This document shows, one piece after another, positions 9,811 to 25,413 of a DNA stretch of 25,437 nt. The DNA comes from a virus: positions 1-25,437 of IMG/VR virus record IMGVR_UViG_3300049491_001096; one strand, 5' to 3'. The notes below the pieces were generated by a model. The model saw nothing but the letters and a program-made list of their open reading frames with translations, was not told where the DNA came from and did not search any database. Made by a program: the position numbers and the translations under genes. How positions within the stretch are numbered: position 1 is the stretch's first letter; each line of letters starts with the position of its first letter.

Positions 9811-12800
9811 TCAGTGCGCGGGGTTGGTGCGGCGCGCTGCCGCGTTCTGCACGGTGCGCGCGAGCTTGCTCATGAGCTGCTCTTCGCTGCGCTTGTCCAT
9901 GCCTTCAGGCACGCTCACGTTGAACACCTGGTGGATGGTGTTGCCGCCGCCGCGCGAGCCGCGCGCGCCCGGCGCGGCGGACTGTGCGCCAGGCCGCAGC
10001 ACGCGCGGGGCGCTCACCACGCCGCCACCGGCATAGCCGCGCAGACCCAGGCGGATGGCTTCGGCCTGGGCTGGCCCACCGACGCGCCGCACGTCCTGCT
10101 GCGACCAGACTACCTCACCCTTGTGCACGAGGCCCGCGGGCTCAAGGGTGGCGCCGGGGCCGGTATAGCCGCCGCCGTCGAACGCAAAGAGGCTGGCCAC
10201 GCCGCTGCCGGCACCGGCCGCGCTGGTGGTGAGCAGCGCCTCGGCCGCGAGCTCGGCGGCAGCCGCCAGGGCGATGAAACTGGCATCGATTTCGAAGACG
10301 GCAATGCTCAACTCCAGCAGGGAATCCGCGCTGATCGAGAGTGCAGCATCGGTGCCGATGGCGGTGATGCCGAGCGCCGCCAGCGCGGCATCGGCCGCGG
10401 CAGTGGCAGAGGCCAGTGCGGTGGCCGCGATAGCGGGCGCTGCCGCGCCTGGCGCGCCGGACAGCGTGCCGCCCGCAAAGCCGGGCGCGGTAAGGGCGCC
10501 GGTGCTGGCCGGGAAGCCAAAGGCACCTTTGAGGATGCTGCCAAGGCCTTCGCCGCTGCCCGCTCCTTCGGTGATGCCGCGAATTTGCTTGCGAAAGAAT
10601 TCGGTTAACCGCTGTTCGACAAGTTCGCGGCTGAGGATGCGGGTAAGGCTGTCGCCCAGGCTCTTGACGGCGCTGCGGGCATCCTTGAAATTGAGCGTGA
10701 TGGCGCCCGCAGCCTTGCCCAGCGCGTCGGCCACTTCATCCCCCACCTGGCGCATGCGCACGAGCGCGGGATCGACGCTGACGGCGAGGCGCTCGAACTC
10801 CAGGCGCAACTGGCGGGCGAATTGCACGGCCGGGCTGTCGGGGCCGGCAGCGGCGGCGATGGCTTCCACGCGCGCGAGCTCGTCGCCCATTTGCTGCAAG
10901 GCCTGCGAGCGCAGTGCAAAGAGGCGCTGCTCGACTTCGGCGCGGCCGGCGCCGGACGCCTGGGCTTCGATGGCGACACGCTGCTCGGCGATCGAGAGGC
11001 CTTCGGTGATGCGCTGCACGTTGCGCTGGGCATCGCCGAAAGCAACCGAGGCGCGCGTGGCATCGTCGAACTGGCGCAACTGCTCGGGGCTGAGGCCCAG
11101 GCCGGTGGCCGAGCGGCGAGCGTTGTCGATGGCGGCATCGGCGCGCAAGCGCGCGGCGCCGCTGGCATTGCCTTGCAGTTCGAGCAGTTGCGCCTGAAAT
11201 TCACGCGCGCGGTTCAGGCGCTGCTCTTCTTCGCGGTCCTGCGCAAGGCGGTCGAGCGCTTCCTTGTCCCGGAAAGCCTGCCGCGCGCGGCCGGCGCGGG
11301 CTTCGAGGTCTTCAATCTTGGTGATGGTTTCGATGCGCTTGCTCGGGTCCGTGGTGTCTTTCAGGAAAGCCTGCAACGCGGTCTTTTCCTTGTCGAAGCG
11401 GGCGAGCTGCGCATCCAGAGCGCGGGCCTGGATGTCGGCGCGGTCGGCGTAGAAGCCAGCGACAGAGACCAGCCCATTGTTGTATTGCGCTTCGAGAAAA
11501 CGCTCATGGAACTGGATGGCTTCGCTCTCATTCTGGAACGCGCTTTCCAGGTTCTTCAGGGCTTGGTCGAGCAGGGCTTTGCGGACTTGCTCGGCTTCGC
11601 GCGCGGCTTTGTCGGCGGCGACGGCTTCGGGTACTCGGAAATTCAAGACTGGTTTGTCGGCCGCCGAGATGACAGGTCGGCCGCGGCGCGCCAACTCTGT
11701 GGGATCGACCTGGATGCGCGCGGCAATGCGGCCCGCTTCGCTGAACTGAAATCGAAGGGCTTCGCTGACCTTGGCCCCGTTTTCAGTGAAGAGTTTCAGG
11801 TAGCGGTCGTTCGCCTCGGCGGCAATCTGATTGCGCTTTTCCAACGCGGCTTTAAGTTCGTTTTGCCCAGCTTCATCGAAGATGAGTCGGCCGACGCCGC
11901 CGGGCTTGGCAAGGACACTGCCCGCCGCGGCAAGCAATTGCACGTCGGCGGATACGGACTCAAAACTGCCGCCCACTGCGCGAAGGAGTTTCACCCGGCC
12001 GGCCAGCGCTTCGGCAATCGTGGCGACGGCAATGGCCGCGCCTTGCGCAAAGTCGCGCACGCCCGTATTGGTGCCGAGTTTGCTTGCCGCATCGTCCATA
12101 CCCAGGGCTTCGCGCGCCGCCTTTGTGAGCTCGGCCGTCAGCGCCGTAAAGGCCGGCAACGTGGAGAGCGCGGCGATTTGCGCCGTTTGCTTCAACTCAC
12201 TGCGCACCCGGGCCTGGCGGTCCGCATAGTCATCGGCCAACTTGATTTGCTCGGCGGTGAGGCGGTTTTGCGTCAGCCCGCTATTGGCCAGTTCCTTGAA
12301 AAAGGGCAGCGCATCGGCGCCGCTCTTGCCCAGCAGGGCCACGGCCACTGCGGTTTTCCCAGCCCCATCCTTGAAGGTGTTCAGGCGCTGCGCAATCAGC
12401 TCGAACTGTTTCTCGGGCGCGAGGGTGCGGAAGCTCTCGAAATCGATGCCCAGGCGCTTGAGCGCGGGCGCGACGCCCTTGGTTTCTTCGGTGGTTTTTG
12501 ACAGGCCGGCGGTGAGCTTGACCATGAAGCCGGCGAGCTGGTCGGCGCTGACGCCCGCCACATCGCCAGCGGTGGTGAAACTGGCCAGGGCTTCGGCGCT
12601 GGCGCCGGTTTTTTCTTCCAGATCCTGGAAGTGCGCAGCGCCGTGCACCAGGTCCGGGAAGAGTTGCAGCAGGCCCTTGATGGCTTCGGTGGCGGCGCTG
12701 GCGAGCGCGCTTCCCGCAAAGACCGCGCCGACGCCGGCGAAGGACTTGTCCATGCGCGCGGCGGCGGATTCGACCACGCCGGCGGCGCGGCGCATTTCCG

Positions 12801-12855
12801 CCTCGAACTTGGCGGTTTGCGCAACGAGATCAATACTGAGGGTGGCCAGTGGCAT
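9811..12855 (-). CDS. Tail tape measure protein
   Basis: The 1,014-residue product sets tail length and is ejected with the DNA. It opens MPLATLSIDLVAQTAKFEAEM with a helical, coiled-coil-rich N-terminal region, and has a hydrophobic stretch (AVFAGSALASAATEAI) near residue 45. The C-terminal third contains TLNFKDARSAVKSLGDSLTR, typical of the lambda-family tape measure C-terminus, a long Ala-rich hydrophobic section (about 10215-10440), and FDGGGYTGPGATLEPAGLVH, a hallmark of this family. At about 1.5 angstrom per helical residue a tail of roughly 150 nm is predicted. The ATG at 12855 was chosen because the upstream open frame is Arg/Pro noise overlapping the chaperone. Confidence 0.95.
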   Translation of the reverse strand: MPLATLSIDLVAQTAKFEAEMRRAAGVVESAAARMDKSFAGVGAVFAGSALASAATEAIKGLLQLFPDLVHGAAHFQDLEEKTGASAEALASFTTAGDVAGVSADQLAGFMVKLTAGLSKTTEETKGVAPALKRLGIDFESFRTLAPEKQFELIAQRLNTFKDGAGKTAVAVALLGKSGADALPFFKELANSGLTQNRLTAEQIKLADDYADRQARVRSELKQTAQIAALSTLPAFTALTAELTKAAREALGMDDAASKLGTNTGVRDFAQGAAIAVATIAEALAGRVKLLRAVGGSFESVSADVQLLAAAGSVLAKPGGVGRLIFDEAGQNELKAALEKRNQIAAEANDRYLKLFTENGAKVSEALRFQFSEAGRIAARIQVDPTELARRGRPVISAADKPVLNFRVPEAVAADKAAREAEQVRKALLDQALKNLESAFQNESEAIQFHERFLEAQYNNGLVSVAGFYADRADIQARALDAQLARFDKEKTALQAFLKDTTDPSKRIETITKIEDLEARAGRARQAFRDKEALDRLAQDREEEQRLNRAREFQAQLLELQGNASGAARLRADAAIDNARRSATGLGLSPEQLRQFDDATRASVAFGDAQRNVQRITEGLSIAEQRVAIEAQASGAGRAEVEQRLFALRSQALQQMGDELARVEAIAAAAGPDSPAVQFARQLRLEFERLAVSVDPALVRMRQVGDEVADALGKAAGAITLNFKDARSAVKSLGDSLTRILSRELVEQRLTEFFRKQIRGITEGAGSGEGLGSILKGAFGFPASTGALTAPGFAGGTLSGAPGAAAPAIAATALASATAAADAALAALGITAIGTDAALSISADSLLELSIAVFEIDASFIALAAAAELAAEALLTTSAAGAGSGVASLFAFDGGGYTGPGATLEPAGLVHKGEVVWSQQDVRRVGGPAQAEAIRLGLRGYAGGGVVSAPRVLRPGAQSAAPGARGSRGGGNTIHQVFNVSVPEGMDKRSEEQLMSKLARTVQNAAARRTNPAH

Positions 12856-12860
12856 GGTGT

Positions 12861-13480
12861 TCAGTCGTCTTCGGTTTCGTCTTCGTCGGCGGCGCCGCCT
12901 TCGTCGGGCCGGCGGTGGTGCTTGATGGTGAGCAGGGCTTCGACCAGGGCTTCGCGGTCTTGCACGCCATAGAAGGCGCAGGCCAGGTCCAACTGGCCCC
13001 AATCGAGCGCATGGCTGCCTGTGCTGAGGAAGTTCCAGACCAGGATCGCCAGCGCATTGGCAGGGGTGAGCGGCTCGACTTCGCCCGCGTCTTCATCGGC
13101 CCCGCCGTCGCCGAGGTCGAGGCGGGCGCTCAGTTTCCCGAGGCGGCTTTTCTATTGTCGCTGTGGGCCTTGACGGCTTCGGCGATGGCGTCAGCGATCT
13201 TGCTGATCCAGTCCGCCCGGTCTATCACCACTTCGCGGAACAGTTCCGCGTGAAACAGCAGCTCATCTTCGGCGCCGCCATTGATGACGCTGGCCTCGGT
13301 GAAGCCGGACCAACCCACCGTGTAGCGCACAATGTGCTCGAGCTCGATGCCGCGCACAAGCTGCCACAACTCCCCTTCCGGCGGGCGGCGAATGGTGACC
13401 GAGAGCGTTTGATCTTCGTCCAGCCAGACGCGCGATTCGCGCTGCGCCTGGATGGCTTTGATGGTGGCCGAGCGCTCCAT
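12861..13480 (-). CDS. Tail assembly chaperone long form (gpG-T-like), -1 frameshift product
   Basis: The long product is the 116 residues of the short form joined to 90 residues read in the -1 frame, 206 in all. After the slip the frame continues from CTG at 13133 with LSARLDLGDGG, then LTPANALAILVWNFLSTG, WGQLDLACAFYGV and an acidic end (DEDETEDD) with TGA at 12861-12863. The T part has no ATG, GTG or TTG near its beginning and meets a TAG just upstream of the slip, so it can only be made by frameshifting. It ends five bases before the tape measure ATG. In lambda the T domain binds tail tube protein while G binds the tape measure; the same division is inferred here. Confidence 0.88.
13101..13139 (-). 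promoter_or_regulatory. -1 programmed ribosomal frameshift signal
   Basis: The heptamer GGGAAAC (13139 to 13133 on the minus strand) reads G GGA AAC in the chaperone frame, fitting X XXY YYZ, and the zero-frame TGA follows at once. A 6-bp stem (CCCGCC at 13126-13121 with GGCGGG at 13106-13101, 14-nt loop) begins 6 nt after the heptamer, the spacing usual for stimulatory structures. Lambda uses the close relative GGGAAAG at the same gene junction. Confidence 0.9.
13130..13480 (-). CDS. Tail assembly chaperone (lambda gpG-like short form)
   Basis: The 116-residue product starts MERSATIKAIQAQRESRVWLDEDQ, has a beta-rich first half and a helical C-terminal half (ELFREVVIDRADWISKIADAIAEAVKAHSD). 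It lies between tail tube and tape measure, the invariant place of the gpG-like chaperone, which coats the tape measure before tube polymerisation. Its last two sense codons before TGA are part of a GGGAAAC slippery heptamer, so a fraction of ribosomes should read on into the -1 frame and make the long form. Sequence similarity to lambda gpG itself is not visible; the call rests on position, size and frameshift. Confidence 0.85.
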   Translation of the reverse strand: MERSATIKAIQAQRESRVWLDEDQTLSVTIRRPPEGELWQLVRGIELEHIVRYTVGWSGFTEASVINGGAEDELLFHAELFREVVIDRADWISKIADAIAEAVKAHSDNRKAASGN

Positions 13481-13483
13481 GGG

Positions 13484-14128
13484 TTATGCCGGCAGCTTGA
13501 GCAAGAAGCCGCGGCCCTTGACGGACACGCTGCCTTTGCCGAGCTGCTTGGCCTGCACGTCTTCACCGGGCGCCGAGGGCACGCCGTAGTACAGGCGCAC
13601 GGCGCCGCCTTGCAGGGTGATGCGAACGAGGATTTTCGTGCCGGTGCGTGCCGCGGCTTCGACGAAGGCCATGGCCGTGCTGAGCACTTCCTTGGCCAGC
13701 ACGTTCAGGCTGAGCGGCTGCGCGGCCATGTTGCCGGCATCGATAACGTCGATGACATCGAGCAGGGTGGTTGCGTCAAGGTCTTCGGTGTTGGCATCCG
13801 GGATGCTGTAGCTGGTGGCCTCACCCAAGGTGGCGAAGGTGGTGGCCGGGGTGAAGTTGCCGGTGACGTAGGTGCTGTAGTTGGTGGTGTCCAGCCCCTG
13901 CAATTCGAAGGTGTTGGCGGCCACGTTCTTCACGCGCGTGGCCTGGTCCTCCAGTTGCACCATGCCATCCAGACCACTCCAGTAGCCGACGGTGTTGTTG
14001 GCCAGGCCGTGCGCGGTTTCGGTGGCCACACCGGTGGTGGCTTTGCTGACGGAATCGACCGCGATCGCGGTGGCGAAGGCGGTGGCCACTTCGACACGGA
14101 TGCCGCGGCCTTTGACGTTGGTGCTCAT
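13484..14128 (-). CDS. Major tail tube protein with inserted FCCH-like domain
   Basis: This protein would stack as rings to form the non-contractile tail tube. The 214-residue product starts MSTNVKGRGIRVEVATAFA and ends GSVSVKGRGFLLKLPA. From about residue 24 to 88 there is a small beta domain (VATETAHGL, SGLDGMVQLEDQATRVKNV, NTFELQGLDTTNYSTY). Its pattern matches the FCCH-like beta domains found inserted in many phage virion proteins. The rest (DATTLLDVIDVIDAGNMAAQP and FVEAAARTGTKILVRITLQGG) fits a tail tube fold. It has an AAAGGA ribosome site and precedes the chaperone and tape measure genes, which supports the call. Confidence 0.88.
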   Translation of the reverse strand: MSTNVKGRGIRVEVATAFATAIAVDSVSKATTGVATETAHGLANNTVGYWSGLDGMVQLEDQATRVKNVAANTFELQGLDTTNYSTYVTGNFTPATTFATLGEATSYSIPDANTEDLDATTLLDVIDVIDAGNMAAQPLSLNVLAKEVLSTAMAFVEAAARTGTKILVRITLQGGAVRLYYGVPSAPGEDVQAKQLGKGSVSVKGRGFLLKLPA

Positions 14129-14206: not shown

Positions 14207-14584
14207 CTAGGTATCGATCCAGAATTCAGTGACGATTTCGCTGCCTTCGAGGTCCAGCTCATGCTCGGTGATGACGTTGCGCGATTCGGTGGGCAGGCCA
14301 CCCACCGGCCCCTCGACGGTTGACAAGGCCAAGGCGGCTTCGAGCGCGTCGGCAAGCTCTTCGCATCCTGCCCGGGTGTCTGCCCAGCACTGGAAGCTGA
14401 CCCGGTAGAAAGTGCTGGCCACACTGCCGTCGAGCAGGTGCGTTGGCTCGCGCTCCACCACGTACACGATGTACGGCCGCGGCGCGCCCTGCACCACCTT
14501 GTCCGGCGCCAGGCGCGTGCCGACCAAGGCCGACAGCGGGGCGTAAGCCAGCAGCTCAGTGACCAGGGTAGTTTCGACGCTCAT
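14207..14584 (-). CDS. Tail completion protein, DUF3168-like
   Basis: The 125-residue product starts MSVETTLVTELLAYAPLSALVGTRLAP, the N-terminal pattern of the DUF3168 / tail completion family, followed by RPYIVYVVEREPTHLLDG and a VSFQCWADTRAGCEELADALE helix. Known members (HK97 gp11-like) cap the tail tube where it meets the head. An ATGA overlap couples it to the gp10-like gene. It lies just before the tail tube gene, as expected. A hairpin with a U run follows the stop. Confidence 0.88.
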   Translation of the reverse strand: MSVETTLVTELLAYAPLSALVGTRLAPDKVVQGAPRPYIVYVVEREPTHLLDGSVASTFYRVSFQCWADTRAGCEELADALEAALALSTVEGPVGGLPTESRNVITEHELDLEGSEIVTEFWIDT

Positions 14585-16069: not shown

Positions 16070-17656
16070 TCAGCGGCGCCGGGTGCTGGTGGCGCGCGGG
16101 CGGGTAGCACTGGTTGGCGCTGCGCGGCTGGGGCTGCTGAAGGCCTGGCGAGCGGCAACGGCGAGCACGGGCGAGCGGGCGGCGCTCGGCGCCACGCTGC
16201 CGGCTTGGCGGTAGCCGCTGACGCGCAATGCCGCCAGGGCGAAAGCCATGTCGATTTCCAACGACAGGCCAGTTGGCAGAGGGCCGCTGAAGATGAGCTC
16301 GAAGGCGGCTTCGGTTTCACCGGCGGCAAGCACCGGCGCGATCTGCATGGCGCCGAGGGCCTGCGCAACGTCGGCTTCCGCAGCCAGGCCGGCATCTCGA
16401 ATCAGGCGCCCGGCCAGGCCGATGGCGGCATCGGCCTCGGCGGCCAGCCCGGTGGCCGATCGCTGAACGGCGGCTAGAGCCTGAGCCGTCTCGGCTTCGC
16501 TGGCGATGCCGACGGACCGGCCAAGGATGCCGACCAGCGCCAAGGCCGTATCGGACTCGACAGCCTGCCCTGTTGCGCGTGACGAAACGCCGAGCAGGAT
16601 CTGCGCCGCGTCGGTTTCAGCGGCCTGACCGGTGGCTTTGATCTGGCGCGCAGCCAGCGCCTGGGCCGCATCGGTTTCCAGCGCCAGGCCAGCGGCAGCG
16701 CCTTGAGCCGGCGACAGCGGCAGTGCGGTATCGGATTCACTGGCCAGGCCAGTGGCGGCGATCTGACGCGCGGTCAGGGCCTGTGCAGTGTCAACTTCAC
16801 CGGCCTGGCCGGTGGCGCGAAGTTGCAGCGCGGACACGGCCTGAGCCGTATCGGTTTCGCTGGCTTGGCCAGTGGCACGGAGCTGCAATGCAGTCAGGGC
16901 CTGCGAGGCGTCTGCTTCGCTGGCCAGGCCGGTGGCGCGGATCGCTACCGCGACCAGGGCTTGCGCAGCGTCTGCTTCACCGGCCTGGCCGGCGGCGCGC
17001 AGTTGCAGCGCGGACACGGCCTGCGCCGCATCGGCTTCGCTGGCTTGGCCAGTGGCACGGAGCTGCAATACGGCCAGGGCCTGCGAGGTGTCTGCTTCGC
17101 TGGCCTGGCCGGTGGCACGGATCGCTACCGCGGTCAGGGCTTGCGCGGCGTCTGCTTCGCTGGCCTGGCCGGCGGCGCGCAGTTGCAGCCCGGCCAGGGC
17201 CTGCGCCGCCTGAGTCTCTGCGGCGACGCCGACGGTGCGCGCCAACACCATGGACAGAGCAAATGCAGCATCGGTTTCAGCGGCCAAGCCGACGGGTGTG
17301 CCGGCAGATGCCAAGGCCAACGCAATATCGGTTTCGCTGGCTAGGCCGATGACGCGAATTTGCAGCGCGGCAAGCGCCTGTGCCGCGTCCGCTTCTGTGG
17401 CTTGGCCGGCAACACGGACCTGCACCCCAGACAAAGAAAGCGAAGTGGCGGCTTCTGTGGCAAGACCCGCTGCGATGATCTGCAAGCGCGCAAGGTTGAG
17501 TGCGGTATCGGCCTCCAATGCCACACCAGCCGGCGATCCCGCCTGGCGCGGCAGCCACGGCGGCGCGTTGGCGCTATCGGCCTCGGGCGTGAGCCGCAGC
17601 GAACGCGGCTTGCGGACCAGCGTTTGCGCGCGGAGGAACCAGCCCTGGTTTTGCAT
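16070..17656 (-). CDS. Repeat protein of about 22 tandem 20-residue units
   Basis: The 528-residue product has a short N-terminal domain (residues 1-41, MQNQGWFLRAQTLVRKPRSL onward), about 22 contiguous units of 20 residues (about 42-480; one unit is 19 long), and a 48-residue basic Ser/Arg/Ala-rich tail ending TRRR. The consensus unit is ATGQASEADTAQALAALQLR, with Gly3, Ala5, Glu7, Asp9, Ala11 and Leu14 nearly invariant. The strict period and alternating small, acidic and hydrophobic positions suggest a stacked solenoid or an elongated fibre. It lies between the 385-aa head-region gene and the first connector gene, so a capsid or neck fibre is plausible. The function is not established. No catalytic motif, signal peptide or membrane segment is seen. 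Confidence 0.85.
   Translation of the reverse strand: MQNQGWFLRAQTLVRKPRSLRLTPEADSANAPPWLPRQAGSPAGVALEADTALNLARLQIIAAGLATEAATSLSLSGVQVRVAGQATEADAAQALAALQIRVIGLASETDIALALASAGTPVGLAAETDAAFALSMVLARTVGVAAETQAAQALAGLQLRAAGQASEADAAQALTAVAIRATGQASEADTSQALAVLQLRATGQASEADAAQAVSALQLRAAGQAGEADAAQALVAVAIRATGLASEADASQALTALQLRATGQASETDTAQAVSALQLRATGQAGEVDTAQALTARQIAATGLASESDTALPLSPAQGAAAGLALETDAAQALAARQIKATGQAAETDAAQILLGVSSRATGQAVESDTALALVGILGRSVGIASEAETAQALAAVQRSATGLAAEADAAIGLAGRLIRDAGLAAEADVAQALGAMQIAPVLAAGETEAAFELIFSGPLPTGLSLEIDMAFALAALRVSGYRQAGSVAPSAARSPVLAVAARQAFSSPSRAAPTSATRPRATSTRRR
16217..17533 (-). repeat. 60-bp tandem repeat array (about 22 in-frame units)
   Basis: The DNA repeats with a 60-bp period across this span without spacers, each unit encoding 20 residues. 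Units near the centre are the most alike and those at the edges are diverged. This is the pattern expected if the array grows by unequal crossover or slippage in its middle. Because the period is a multiple of three, long open frames also appear on the opposite strand; these are artefacts. Confidence 0.95.
16801..17160 (-). repeat. 180-bp higher-order duplication within the repeat array
   Basis: The three-unit block 16801-16980 matches the next block 16981-17160 with about 15 mismatches by eye, roughly 92 percent identity. Adjacent 60-bp units inside a block differ far more. A three-unit segment was therefore copied as one event after the units had diverged. The 17161-17220 unit begins a third, weaker copy. 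Confidence 0.9.
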
Positions 17657-19311: not shown

Positions 19312-19695
19312 TCAGGCGCTGAGCGCTGCGAGCGCTTCACGCTTGGTTGCGAGGTCTTTGGCCAGGGCAGCCTTCGTCTCGTCGTCTTTGTCCTTGGCAT
19401 CGACCAGCAACTGCTCGGCCTGGGCAATGGCAACGAGCAACTGCTCGGCCTGGGCAATGGCAACGAGCTGCGCCTCGCGCGCGGCGGTTCTCTGTTCGGC
19501 TGCGAGTTCGATGGCGCTGCGCGCGCTGGCGGCACCTTGGCCGCGCGCGTAGATCAGGGCTTCTTTGCAGGTATCGATACCGCCATCGGCGGCAAGCGCC
19601 TTGATGAGTTCGGGCTGCGCCTCGACGATCGTGCCGGCCTTCAGGCCATGCGAAACGATATCGCAGAGCACCAGCGCCGAGATGAGTTTGGCCAT
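19312..19695 (-). CDS. Putative capsid-associated (decoration) protein with internal repeat
   Basis: I do not recognise this 127-residue protein as a named family. It begins with a compact domain (MAKLISALVLCDIVSHGLKAG, then a KALAADGGIDTCKEA segment with two Cys in residues 1-45). From about residue 55 it is a charged Ala/Glu/Gln-rich helix with coiled-coil character. The helix holds an exact tandem duplication of ten residues (LVAIAQAEQL twice). It follows the capsid gene, has a good AAGGAA ribosome site, and shares the hairpin leader found before the capsid and tail tube genes. Position and leader suggest an abundant head-bound protein such as a decoration or short fibre protein. This is an inference; a connector or assembly factor is also possible. 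Confidence 0.7.
   Translation of the reverse strand: MAKLISALVLCDIVSHGLKAGTIVEAQPELIKALAADGGIDTCKEALIYARGQGAASARSAIELAAEQRTAAREAQLVAIAQAEQLLVAIAQAEQLLVDAKDKDDETKAALAKDLATKREALAALSA
19406..19468 (-). repeat. Perfect 30-bp tandem duplication inside a gene
   Basis: Two identical head-to-tail 30-bp copies (19407-19436 and 19437-19466) encode ten residues each, in frame, in the helical half of the 127-aa protein. Identity continues for one to two bases on each side. The absence of any mismatch suggests a recent slipped-strand duplication, which could vary in copy number between relatives. Confidence 0.95.
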
Positions 19696-21884: not shown

Positions 21885-23169
21885 TGGTGCCTCCGTTCGG
21901 TTTGAGATTGGGGTTCGGCGGGAGGTTTTCTAAGCGGCGTACTTCGTCGGCTTCCATCCAGGGCATCTCGCCAGCGCGGCCCATGGCCACGCGGTAAGCA
22001 TCGAAGCGGGTTTTGATGTCGCCTCGAACAAGAGCCGTGGTGTCGTGCTCGACGAAAAAGCGCTGGCGGCTGGGCCAGAGCTTTCGATTGAATTCCTGCG
22101 CAAGCGGCACAAGATGGCGCAGCAGCGTGTACCGCACAAAGTTGCTGCCCTGCGCCTCCATGCCGGTACCCCAGCTACTATTTTTCTCGGTGTGGCCAAC
22201 CATGTGCGGCGGCACGCCGAAAATGCGGCAAATTTCTTCGACAGTGAACAGGCGCGTTGCCAGAATTTCAGCGTCCTTCGGGTTGACGCTGAGCTGCGCA
22301 GGTTCAAGGCCGCCGGTCAGGATGAGTGGGCTGCGGTTGGCACCGCCGCGACGCGCAAGCAGGGATGCGAGCAGGTTGTCGCGCTGCACTTTGTCAAGAG
22401 TGTTCGGCGTCTTGAGAGCGTAGTCGAACGTGGCGCCGCCGTTGAAGAACTGGCCGTGATAGCGTTCGGCCGCAATGGCGGTGCCGACTGATTCGCGCGC
22501 CGCATAGGTTATGGGGCTCGGGCTGAGCATGCAGTCGGGGTCAAAGCCGAGGCTGGGTAACTGGATGACATCGGCCCAATCGAGCGTGTACGCTTCGCCG
22601 CGCGCAGGCTGAATGCGCCAGTACCATATGCCGCGCTCGTCGCGCAGCGGTTGGACTTGCAGGGGATGATGTGGGCGCCAGCCAATGACGCGCGCGCTGC
22701 TACGGCTTGGGCGCAGCAGCTCGGCAAAACCGTCGCCATAGAAGAGCTTCCCCGTCAGCAGGATTTCCCAAGCGGCGGCGGCCGTCATGTCTTGGTTGGG
22801 CTGCTCGTTGAGCATCCACCAGTAATCATGATCGACCTGCTTGCGCTGCTGGCCTTCGCGTTCGTAGATGTTGAACGGAAGCGTGGAGATGGCGCCGGCG
22901 ATGAGTGCGACGCATCCATACACCGTGGACACGCGCATGGCGGTCTCGGCATTCACGGGGATGCCGGCCGCCGAGTTGGCGCCTGCGGCCCCGAGAATGT
23001 TGGCCAGCTCGTCGATCGTGAGATTGCGCTGGCTGCTGTTTTCCCCGATGGCTGCGATGGCTGGCGCTGAGGCAATGCGTTCCGATGCGCCATCGCGCGA
23101 GGCAATGAACCGTGCAAGCGCAGCCGATTCGTATTTGCGAGAAGTCAGATTGAAAACAGCAGCGCTCAT
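21850..23169 (-). CDS. Phage portal protein, HK97 family
   Basis: The portal forms the dodecameric ring at one capsid vertex through which DNA enters and leaves. The 439-residue product has the family pattern: an N-terminal STVYGCVALIAGAISTLPF segment, an HDYWWMLNEQPN motif, a central region ending GFDPDC, then ESVGTAIAAERYHGQFFNGG, and a C-terminal FTVEEICRIFGVPPHMVG block that is typical of HK97-type portals. The start at 23169 gives an ATGA overlap with the terminase stop; the longer open frame upstream is arginine-rich noise. The C-terminus overlaps the protease start by 35 nt, which suggests coupled translation. Confidence 0.95.
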   Translation of the reverse strand: MSAAVFNLTSRKYESAALARFIASRDGASERIASAPAIAAIGENSSQRNLTIDELANILGAAGANSAAGIPVNAETAMRVSTVYGCVALIAGAISTLPFNIYEREGQQRKQVDHDYWWMLNEQPNQDMTAAAAWEILLTGKLFYGDGFAELLRPSRSSARVIGWRPHHPLQVQPLRDERGIWYWRIQPARGEAYTLDWADVIQLPSLGFDPDCMLSPSPITYAARESVGTAIAAERYHGQFFNGGATFDYALKTPNTLDKVQRDNLLASLLARRGGANRSPLILTGGLEPAQLSVNPKDAEILATRLFTVEEICRIFGVPPHMVGHTEKNSSWGTGMEAQGSNFVRYTLLRHLVPLAQEFNRKLWPSRQRFFVEHDTTALVRGDIKTRFDAYRVAMGRAGEMPWMEADEVRRLENLPPNPNLKPNGGTSAQPTDPTAGQ

Positions 23170-24902
23170 CCTGCGAGCTCCAGGACGATGATTTCTGGCA
23201 CGACCTGCACTTGCTGCATGGCCTTGGCGCGACCCACGGCCATGATCCCCGCCAGCAGCACGTCGATTCGGCCCGTAGCCTTGGCCTTGCTGAGCTTGCG
23301 GTTGCCGGCGTCGTCTTCGACGATCACGGCATTGGCCGCGCACCAGGTGAGGATCGGGTGGCCGTTGTGCACGAGGCGGCCGTCCAGCAGGTCGGCTTCG
23401 AAGACTTCGATGGCGCCGGTCATGTCGCGGTATCCCTGGCCGAATTCGGCGAGCTCTGGCAGCTCTATTTCTTGGTCATCGGCCAGCGCGCGCAGGTCTT
23501 CGATGCGCCAACGGTCATAGGCCAGGCTGACGATATCGAAATGAGCCGTGATGGCTTGGAGTTGGCGCAGCACATGCAGGCGGCTGATGGCGCGGCCTGG
23601 CGTGGTCAGCAGGTATCCATCGCGCTGCCATTGGGTGTAGGGCACTTTGTCCTGGCGCTCGCGCTCGGCCAGGCCGTCTTCGGGGAGCCAAGCCCAGGCA
23701 AGCAGCTTCCAGGGCTCGCCGTCGGACACCGGCTCGACGACGATGGTGAGCGCGGTGAGGTCGGTGGTGCTGGAAAGGTCCAGGCCGGCGTAGGCGCGCC
23801 GGCCGCGCAGGTCTTCGACGGTGTATTCGCGCGATGCCGGCAACCAGATTTCCGGGCTGAGCCACGGGCTATGGGCTTGCGTCCATTCGCAGAAATTCAG
23901 GCGCCTGACGATGGCTTGCTTGCTGGGCAGGCCGCGCGCTTCGACGACTTGTTGGCGCAGGTAGGACAGGCCGGGCAGGTCGGCCTCTTGCAGGCTTGGG
24001 TTTGCCTTGGGCCAGCAGCGCTCATCGGCGATCGGGTCTTCGCCAGGATCAAGGCCGCAGACGAATGAAAAGAACGCATCGTCCTTCAAGGTGCCGGCGG
24101 CGATGTCGCACGCGTATTCGTGATATTGGCCGCACGGACTGGTGCGGTCATGCCCACTATTCGTGATGATGAACAACAACGGCTGGCGGCGGCTCTTGAA
24201 ACCGGCGCGTAGCATCTCGATGACGTGGTTGGTGGGATGCTCGTGCAGCTCATCGACAAGGGCGATATGCGGGCGCGGGCCGCTCTGGCCTTGGTCGGCG
24301 GATATGGGGCGAAAGAAGCTGCCGGTCGCCGGATAAGAAAGGTTCCAGGTGCGCTCACCGATTCCAGAGGGGCTGAGGCGGCGCAGCAACTCGGGGCTCT
24401 GCTGATACATCGCCACGGCATCACGAAAGAGGATCATCGCTTGGTCACGCTTGGTGGCCGCGGCGTAGATTTCAGCGCGCGCTTCACCATCCGCGCTGAG
24501 GCCGTGCAGGCCAACGCCAGCCGCCAACGGGCTTTTCCCGCTGCCTTTGCCGGTTTCGACGTAGGCAACGCGGAAACGCCGGGTGTTGTCGTCCATGCGA
24601 ACCCAGCCATAAATGCAGCCGATGACAAAGGCTTCCCATCCGAGCAATTTGAACGGCCGGCCTTCATAGTCGCCGCCATTCAGGTGCAGCACTTCCTCAA
24701 AAAAAGCGATCGCATGATTGCCTCGGGCCACGTCCCACATGAAGCCGCGAGCAGCCGCGCTTTGCAGATCCTGCAAATGGCGAGCCACGGCCGCGCGGAC
24801 GTGCGGTCCGGCGGTGACGGCGCCAGCAACGACCTGTTCCGCCCAGGCGGTGGCGCGATCAGCGGGCGGCGGAGCCTTGCGGACGCGGCTTGGCCGCCGC
24901 AT
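23166..24902 (-). CDS. terL: Phage terminase large subunit, HK97 family
   Basis: This is the packaging motor: an ATPase that translocates DNA into the prohead plus a nuclease that cuts the concatemer. From the ATG at 24902 the product has 578 residues. A Walker A motif (ETGKGSGKS) lies at about residues 116-124 and a Walker B motif (IALVDELHE) at about 213-221. The nuclease half begins with GLDLSSTTDLTAL, acidic residue near 375, and ends with a conserved RIDVLLAGIMA segment. The small subunit lies just upstream and the portal overlaps by 4 nt. The start is uncertain: a GTG at 24935, one base past the small subunit stop, and a TTG at 25007 are in frame. None has a clear ribosome site, so coupling to the previous gene is likely. 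Confidence 0.95.
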   Translation of the reverse strand: MRRPSRVRKAPPPADRATAWAEQVVAGAVTAGPHVRAAVARHLQDLQSAAARGFMWDVARGNHAIAFFEEVLHLNGGDYEGRPFKLLGWEAFVIGCIYGWVRMDDNTRRFRVAYVETGKGSGKSPLAAGVGLHGLSADGEARAEIYAAATKRDQAMILFRDAVAMYQQSPELLRRLSPSGIGERTWNLSYPATGSFFRPISADQGQSGPRPHIALVDELHEHPTNHVIEMLRAGFKSRRQPLLFIITNSGHDRTSPCGQYHEYACDIAAGTLKDDAFFSFVCGLDPGEDPIADERCWPKANPSLQEADLPGLSYLRQQVVEARGLPSKQAIVRRLNFCEWTQAHSPWLSPEIWLPASREYTVEDLRGRRAYAGLDLSSTTDLTALTIVVEPVSDGEPWKLLAWAWLPEDGLAERERQDKVPYTQWQRDGYLLTTPGRAISRLHVLRQLQAITAHFDIVSLAYDRWRIEDLRALADDQEIELPELAEFGQGYRDMTGAIEVFEADLLDGRLVHNGHPILTWCAANAVIVEDDAGNRKLSKAKATGRIDVLLAGIMAVGRAKAMQQVQVVPEIIVLELAG

Positions 24903-24936
24903 GGTAGCCGGCGGCTCGGTTACTTCTATGCTCACA

Positions 24937-25413
24937 TCAATGCGCGAAGAAGCGCCCGGTTCCGGCAGCGGCCGGCGGTTTCCCGAAGAGGTCGCCCTGC
25001 GGGTCAATCATCACGCGCGAGCGGCTCACCGGGTCCATGCCGAAGCGGGCCATGAAAGCCTCGGCGCGTTTGCTGCTCATCGCCATGGCGACATGGAGCT
25101 GATTGAGCATTTCCCCGCCCTTGGACGTAATAACTACGAATTTGTCTCCGCGCTCCAAGCGCGCACGGCGATAGTCGGCAACCGCATCGCACAGCATTTC
25201 GAGCGCAATCACGTCGGCTACGGTCAGGACGCGAACGCGCTGGAGCATCGGCGCAACCTGCGTCCACACGACTGCAGAATCCGCCGCAAGATGCGCTGGC
25301 GGCTTGAGCTCCAGCAGCAGATCTGGCTCAGGCTCTTTCCCGTTGCGCCTGTCGGCACGATCCGTGCCTTCAAGGCGCTTCTGCGCCGATGGCTTTGGCA
25401 ATCTACCCGCCAT
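24937..25413 (-). CDS. terS: Phage terminase small subunit, P27-like
   Basis: This protein would recognise phage DNA and hand it to the large terminase to begin packaging. The 158-residue product starts MAGRLPKPSAQKRLEG, close to the usual N-terminus of P27-family small terminases. A helical core follows, with a P-x-HL-x-x-x-A-x-x-x-W segment near residue 40. It sits directly upstream of the large subunit, as expected. The frame stays open to the window edge with a GTG at 25437 and an ATG at 25425. I chose the ATG at 25413 because it matches the family start and follows a run of eight G (25416-25423) that can act as a ribosome site. An upstream extension cannot be excluded because the window ends there. 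Confidence 0.85.
   Translation of the reverse strand: MAGRLPKPSAQKRLEGTDRADRRNGKEPEPDLLLELKPPAHLAADSAVVWTQVAPMLQRVRVLTVADVIALEMLCDAVADYRRARLERGDKFVVITSKGGEMLNQLHVAMAMSSKRAEAFMARFGMDPVSRSRVMIDPQGDLFGKPPAAAGTGRFFAH

Follow-up and report, generated by a model that had tools for sequence, protein, structure and literature searches.

Neither of the lambda-type tail proteins G and T is present in the mature virion. In lambda, the binding partner of G is the tape measure protein and that of T is the tail shaft subunit, and G and GT are made at about 30:1 (PMC5009743). In one phage tail-chaperone cluster with a relationship to HK97, two tested genes were frameshifted at 6-7% (PMC3711429), and the shift sites G_GGA_AAC and A_AAA_AAC have been documented for g-t of the archaeal viruses HCTV-1 and HCTV-2 (PMC5009743). 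The locus described here lies in the window, i.e., the whole stretch of DNA that was analysed, a 25.4-kb viral contig (25,437 nt) from an IMG/VR record with a G+C content of 66%. As in lambda, a -1 slip is predicted on a heptamer of the GGGAAA type close to where G ends, and the T frame has no start of its own. The differences from lambda are that the heptamer ends in C (GGGAAAC instead of GGGAAAG), that a TGA stands directly after it, that a conserved 3' hairpin is predicted in the relatives of the window, and that G and T of the window have no match in the family libraries. The heptamers of HCTV-1 and HCTV-2 are the same as the two dominant heptamers of the window's family, although the hosts of these archaeal viruses differ. 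We assign a probability of roughly 96% to the reading that a tail assembly chaperone gene of the lambda G/GT type is translated here with a programmed -1 frameshift of the ribosome.

Gene neighbourhood

The virion genes of the window run on the minus strand. The capsid genes lie between the terminase and the tail terminator, and G and T are placed between the genes for the major tail protein and the tape measure protein (Table 1), in agreement with the lambda-like arrangement proposed in the preliminary description. Some other features of the neighbouring genes were recorded. A stretch of the tail tube protein scored with the E1_FCCH domain of ubiquitin-activating enzymes at E 2e-6, just below the Pfam cut-off, and the homologue of this protein in Vibrio phage MZH0603 is annotated as E1_FCCH. 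Among the head genes, an ORF of 528 aa (16070-17656, minus strand) is built of tandem repeats of about 60 nt, or 20 aa (16736-17206, period 60, 7.8 copies, 73% matches). Two perfect 30-bp tandem copies were found at 19406-19468, inside a 127-aa ORF (19312-19695, minus strand).

Table 1. Positions of the features discussed in the text. Coordinates are those of the window, except in the last row, where they are preceded by the locus.
Feature	Position	Strand	Basis
Terminase	23166-25007	minus	
Tail terminator	14207-14584	minus	
Major tail (tube) protein, upstream of G	13484-14128	minus	Pfam Phage_tail_3, phrog_584
G frame, putative tail assembly chaperone, zero-frame product of 116 aa	13130-13480	minus	family alignment, predicted fold
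-1-frame TAG ahead of the slip, blocking initiation from further upstream	13152-13154	minus	
Slippery heptamer G GGA AAC	13133-13139	minus	in-frame X XXY YYZ at homologous codons, 53/53
Zero-frame TGA directly 3' of the heptamer	13130-13132	minus	sequence; position varies in relatives
Probable 3' stimulatory hairpin, starting 4 nt after the heptamer	13082-13128	minus	pairing probability; homologous helix in relatives
T frame (-1), 90 codons, CTG at 13133 to TGA at 12863-12861, predicted to be accessible only through the slip	12861-13133	minus	conserved 53/53
Tail length tape measure protein, following T and starting with the ATG at 12855	9811-12855	minus	phrog_24, phrog_9483, others
Post-tube genes of Pseudomonas phage phiAH14a, YMC11/02/R656, Stenotrophomonas phage S72 and Acidovorax phage Aval	L026:4017-4340, L025:3939-4256, L027:4012-4347, L028:4143-4481		

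Predicted slip site and reading frames

The end of the G ORF reads AAA GCC GCC TCG GGA AAC TGA. The preliminary description had pointed to this in-frame heptamer with its adjoining stop, to a TAG just upstream in the -1 frame and to 90 open codons in that frame after the slip, and all of these were found again. The T frame closes 5 nt ahead of the ATG of the tape measure gene. In-frame sites of the form X XXY YYZ, with Y being A or T, occurred nine times in the 6838 codon positions of the 18 main genes of the window, and the only one situated at the 3' end of a gene was the heptamer of G. Since such sites are this rare, and since GGA makes up only 7.7% of the Gly codons, the heptamer at the end of G exceeds chance expectation. 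The joint synonymous probability of the codon choice TCG GGA AAC was 0.014.

In the mechanism we propose, most ribosomes would make G and terminate at the TGA. With the P-site tRNA on GGA and the A-site tRNA on AAC, the ribosome would be delayed by the hairpin about 4 nt downstream, and in a minority of cases, presumably a few percent, the tRNAs would shift back by one base and pair with GGG and AAA. Translation would then continue through CTG AGC GCC and yield a fused G-T protein of 206 aa (...KAASGN-LSARLDL...). If lambda is taken as the model, G would coat the tape measure protein, while the T domain would recruit tail tube subunits.

Relatives and conservation of the junction

Used as direct query, the fused G-T protein of the window gave no match in viral_contigs or in annotated phages, and no relatives were found with the tape measure protein as query. 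The tail tube protein retrieved 23 loci, 14 of which, all with full-length or near-full-length tube matches, had the same downstream arrangement (L002-L014 and L018). Ten of the fused G-T proteins were then aligned, and a search with this alignment retrieved 59 viral loci and two Burkholderiales contigs. Profiles of G and T made from the ten sequences were then searched separately against all forward frames of every locus, and T was in the -1 frame relative to G at every locus with significant matches to both profiles. After removal of duplicates, 53 distinct sequences remained, i.e., the window and 52 relatives. The closest relative, L002, has a fused protein 59% identical to that of the window.

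An in-frame slippery heptamer was present at the homologous junction codons in all 53 distinct sequences, where the ten profile sequences had been chosen beforehand for GGGAAAC or AAAAAAC and the independent evidence comes from the other members, recruited by protein similarity alone. The most common type was A AAA AAC (35 sequences), followed by G GGA AAC (12) and A AAA AAA (4), with A AAA AAT and A AAA AAG found once each. The switch between Gly-Asn and Lys-Asn with the slip pattern kept is what selection for slippage would predict. The frameshift reading gains support from this: both the -1 relation and the in-frame heptamer are retained even where AAA AAA C stands in place of GGG AAA C. 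In most relatives the zero-frame stop followed directly after the heptamer, and in others it came 1-19 codons later, so that the TGA is not an essential part of the site.

A frame break of this kind would also arise from a sequencing or assembly indel, or from decay of a gene in which G and T were one continuous ORF, and a single metagenomic contig would not be enough to exclude an indel. However, 53 distinct sequences, which come from many samples and include one bacterial genome contig (L089), share the -1 break at one and the same codon, and this leaves such an explanation hardly any credit.

The T frame as coding sequence

The T frame had low dN/dS values in five close pairs of relatives, namely 0.08 (L003/L004), 0.11 (L010/L011), 0.12 (L057/L061), 0.13 (L085/L086) and 0.14 (L008/L009). 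For the window and L002 the value was 0.58, and more distant pairs were less clear. These comparisons indicate purifying selection on T as read in the -1 frame. The 88-aa ORF starting with ATG (13096-12830), which overlies T in the zero frame and which had earlier been regarded as a wrong-frame call, is not a conserved gene, because the stretch is broken by zero-frame stops, at least two of them, in 50 of the 53 members.

T could in principle be a separate gene without any frameshift, translated by internal initiation or by coupled reinitiation at the TGA. In annotated phages the T frame does have a CDS entry of its own, with an internal start, and in a minority of the relatives (L044, L060 and L066) an in-frame start is found within the first few T codons. 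Against this, the T frame of the window has no usable start, as previously proposed: its first TTG is codon 48 and its first ATG or GTG is codon 57. T of L002 contains no ATG, GTG or TTG at all, and 34 of the 53 members have no start in the first 25 T codons. Furthermore, internal initiation would not need the heptamer, which is kept in 53 of 53 sequences. We therefore consider separate initiation of T very unlikely. The conserved -1 coding frame lacking a start of its own is instead in line with programmed frameshifting.

Probable downstream hairpin

Stimulatory RNA structures on the 3' side are frequent at programmed frameshift sites, but they are not required of all. A 6-bp stem, CCCGCC/GGCGGG (13126-13121 / 13106-13101), had been suggested for the window. 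Its complementary arms are indeed present, but in a 60-nt fold their pair probability was 6e-5, as compared to 0.9998 for an outer helix CGCCCGC (13128-13122) / GCGGGCG (13088-13082). The 6-bp stem was favoured when the fold reached at most 48 nt past the heptamer, and the outer helix from 52 nt on. The stem was thus rejected as the main structure; the conserved structure shares its 5' arm and uses a more distal 3' arm. The letters of the window would also allow GCCCGC/GCGGGC to cross with CTCGAC/GTCGAG. Judged by eye, this crossing pairing was set aside as likely due to chance, because it lacks a loop that could span the stem and L002 has nothing corresponding to it.

In most relatives the fold is a long hairpin that begins about 5 nt past the heptamer and consists of two helices, an outer GCCCTN/NAGGGC (homologous GCCCTC/GAGGGC) and an inner CTSGAYGC/GCRTCSAG. 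In an alignment of 35 sequences, 79% of the cells were consistent with the pairing, against at most 46% for slid versions of the hairpin. The covariation score was higher than in all 500 shuffles, whereas the pair counts and pair-type counts did not exceed them. As the hairpin is situated in coding sequence, bases not fixed by the protein were chosen for the covariation test. The test used an alignment guided by the protein sequences and one approximate tree. In it, a Leu wobble base and the first base of a Glu/Gln codon on the opposite arm formed C-G in 26 and G-C in 13 sequences with two exceptions (Fisher 1.1e-8), and changed jointly in 13 of 14 independent leaf pairs. On the same alignment and tree, an Asp wobble base and the first base of a Val/Ile codon gave a Fisher value of 4.9e-5 and covaried in 11 of 15 leaf pairs, while two control combinations of mismatched pairs both gave p = 1. 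RNAalifold on the whole alignment returned no structure, probably due to divergent members being out of register, and Rfam had no match here.

In the window and L002 the outer helix is retained, with one U-A pair exchanged for G-C (aligned through the codons GAG GGC / GCG GGC), which counts as one event because the two are sister sequences. The inner helix of the window differs from that of the relatives, and the folding energy downstream of the heptamer in the window was not significantly lower than in shuffles (z -0.92). The hairpin is thus well supported as a predicted structure of the relatives' family, but only plausible in the window itself. The covariation points to a stimulatory 3' structure in the family, of which the window keeps mainly the outer helix.

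Covariation a few nucleotides downstream of the heptamer fits ribosomal pausing, and it bears on transcriptional slippage at a homopolymer as another source of the -1 product. Many of the relatives have runs of six to seven A at the site, which speaks for such slippage. The window and 11 relatives, on the other hand, have G3A3C, a run too short for polymerase slippage, and together with the hairpin this makes a transcriptional origin extremely improbable as compared to slippage of the ribosome.

A good stem was absent in a few relatives, L076, L077, L082 and L083. These form a sub-clade with the slip site A AAA AAA GCC TGA and no clear 3' hairpin, which suggests that heptamer and stimulator can trade off.

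Predicted folds and comparison with annotated phages

G and T of the window had no match in Pfam, PHROGs, NCBIfam or annotated phages. A model of G built with 47 sequences (pLDDT 94.7) matched predicted tape measure chaperones when compared with BFVD by Foldseek (probability 1.00, TMq 0.52-0.56), among them those of Proteus phage PM135 (E 4e-3) and Vibrio phage JSF10 (E 2e-2). In a second structural alignment of the G model, against solved structures, the two highest ranking were the HK97 tail assembly chaperone 2ob9 (Z 4.2) and YqbN 3klu (Z 4.1), followed by YbaB-like entries with Z 3.6-3.8, all of these scores being modest. The alignment with 2ob9 covers 86 residues at 12% identity, with a Z score in the twilight range and no sequence match. 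The G profile gave only implausible weak matches to PDB sequences, and the T model had no meaningful match in the PDB, the best being homeodomains at E 2.9. T matched phrog_680 weakly in 21 of 47 members (best 7e-5) and phrog_17368 in five members. The identification of G and T as chaperones is thus a prediction from gene position, the weak phrog_680 matches and the modest structural matches.

In four annotated phages with remote tube homologues (last row of Table 1), the gene following the tube gene ends in GGGAAAC TGA, and the -1 frame is open for 103-110 codons. The G-T pair of phiAH14a matches phrog_569, phrog_680 and phrog_17368, phrog_680 being the same family as that matched by T in the window's family. 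In phiAH14a, the G part as well as the T part is matched by phrog_17368, which therefore looks like a model of a G-T fusion. The A4 profile had no match in the genomes of the four phages. Comparison of the window's family with the pairs of these phages gave no convincing alignment for the G profiles and a weak one for the T profiles (E 0.05). The records of all four phages list T as a CDS of its own that begins at an internal start, and that of Aval is named FAD-dependent oxidoreductase, probably a misannotation.

Discussion

A frameshifted tail chaperone of the lambda G/GT kind is of an already known kind, and the G-T arrangement as such is expected for a long-tailed phage. What is new is the sequence family, which is uncatalogued in Pfam, PHROGs and NCBIfam, together with its predicted conserved hairpin. 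More tentatively, and in our view rather less likely than not, the loci may represent an undescribed chaperone family in which the toggle between GGGAAAC and AAAAAAC is coupled to the covarying two-helix hairpin within T, acting as a dedicated and tunable stimulator. If this is true, loss of the hairpin in branches of the family, partial in the case of the window, would be expected alongside changed strength of the heptamer. Annotation has missed the T gene in no fewer than 53 distinct sequences of phages and prophages, where it can now be named. As the heptamer and the hairpin vary independently, the family offers an evolutionary data set on how phages may set the ratio of G to GT.
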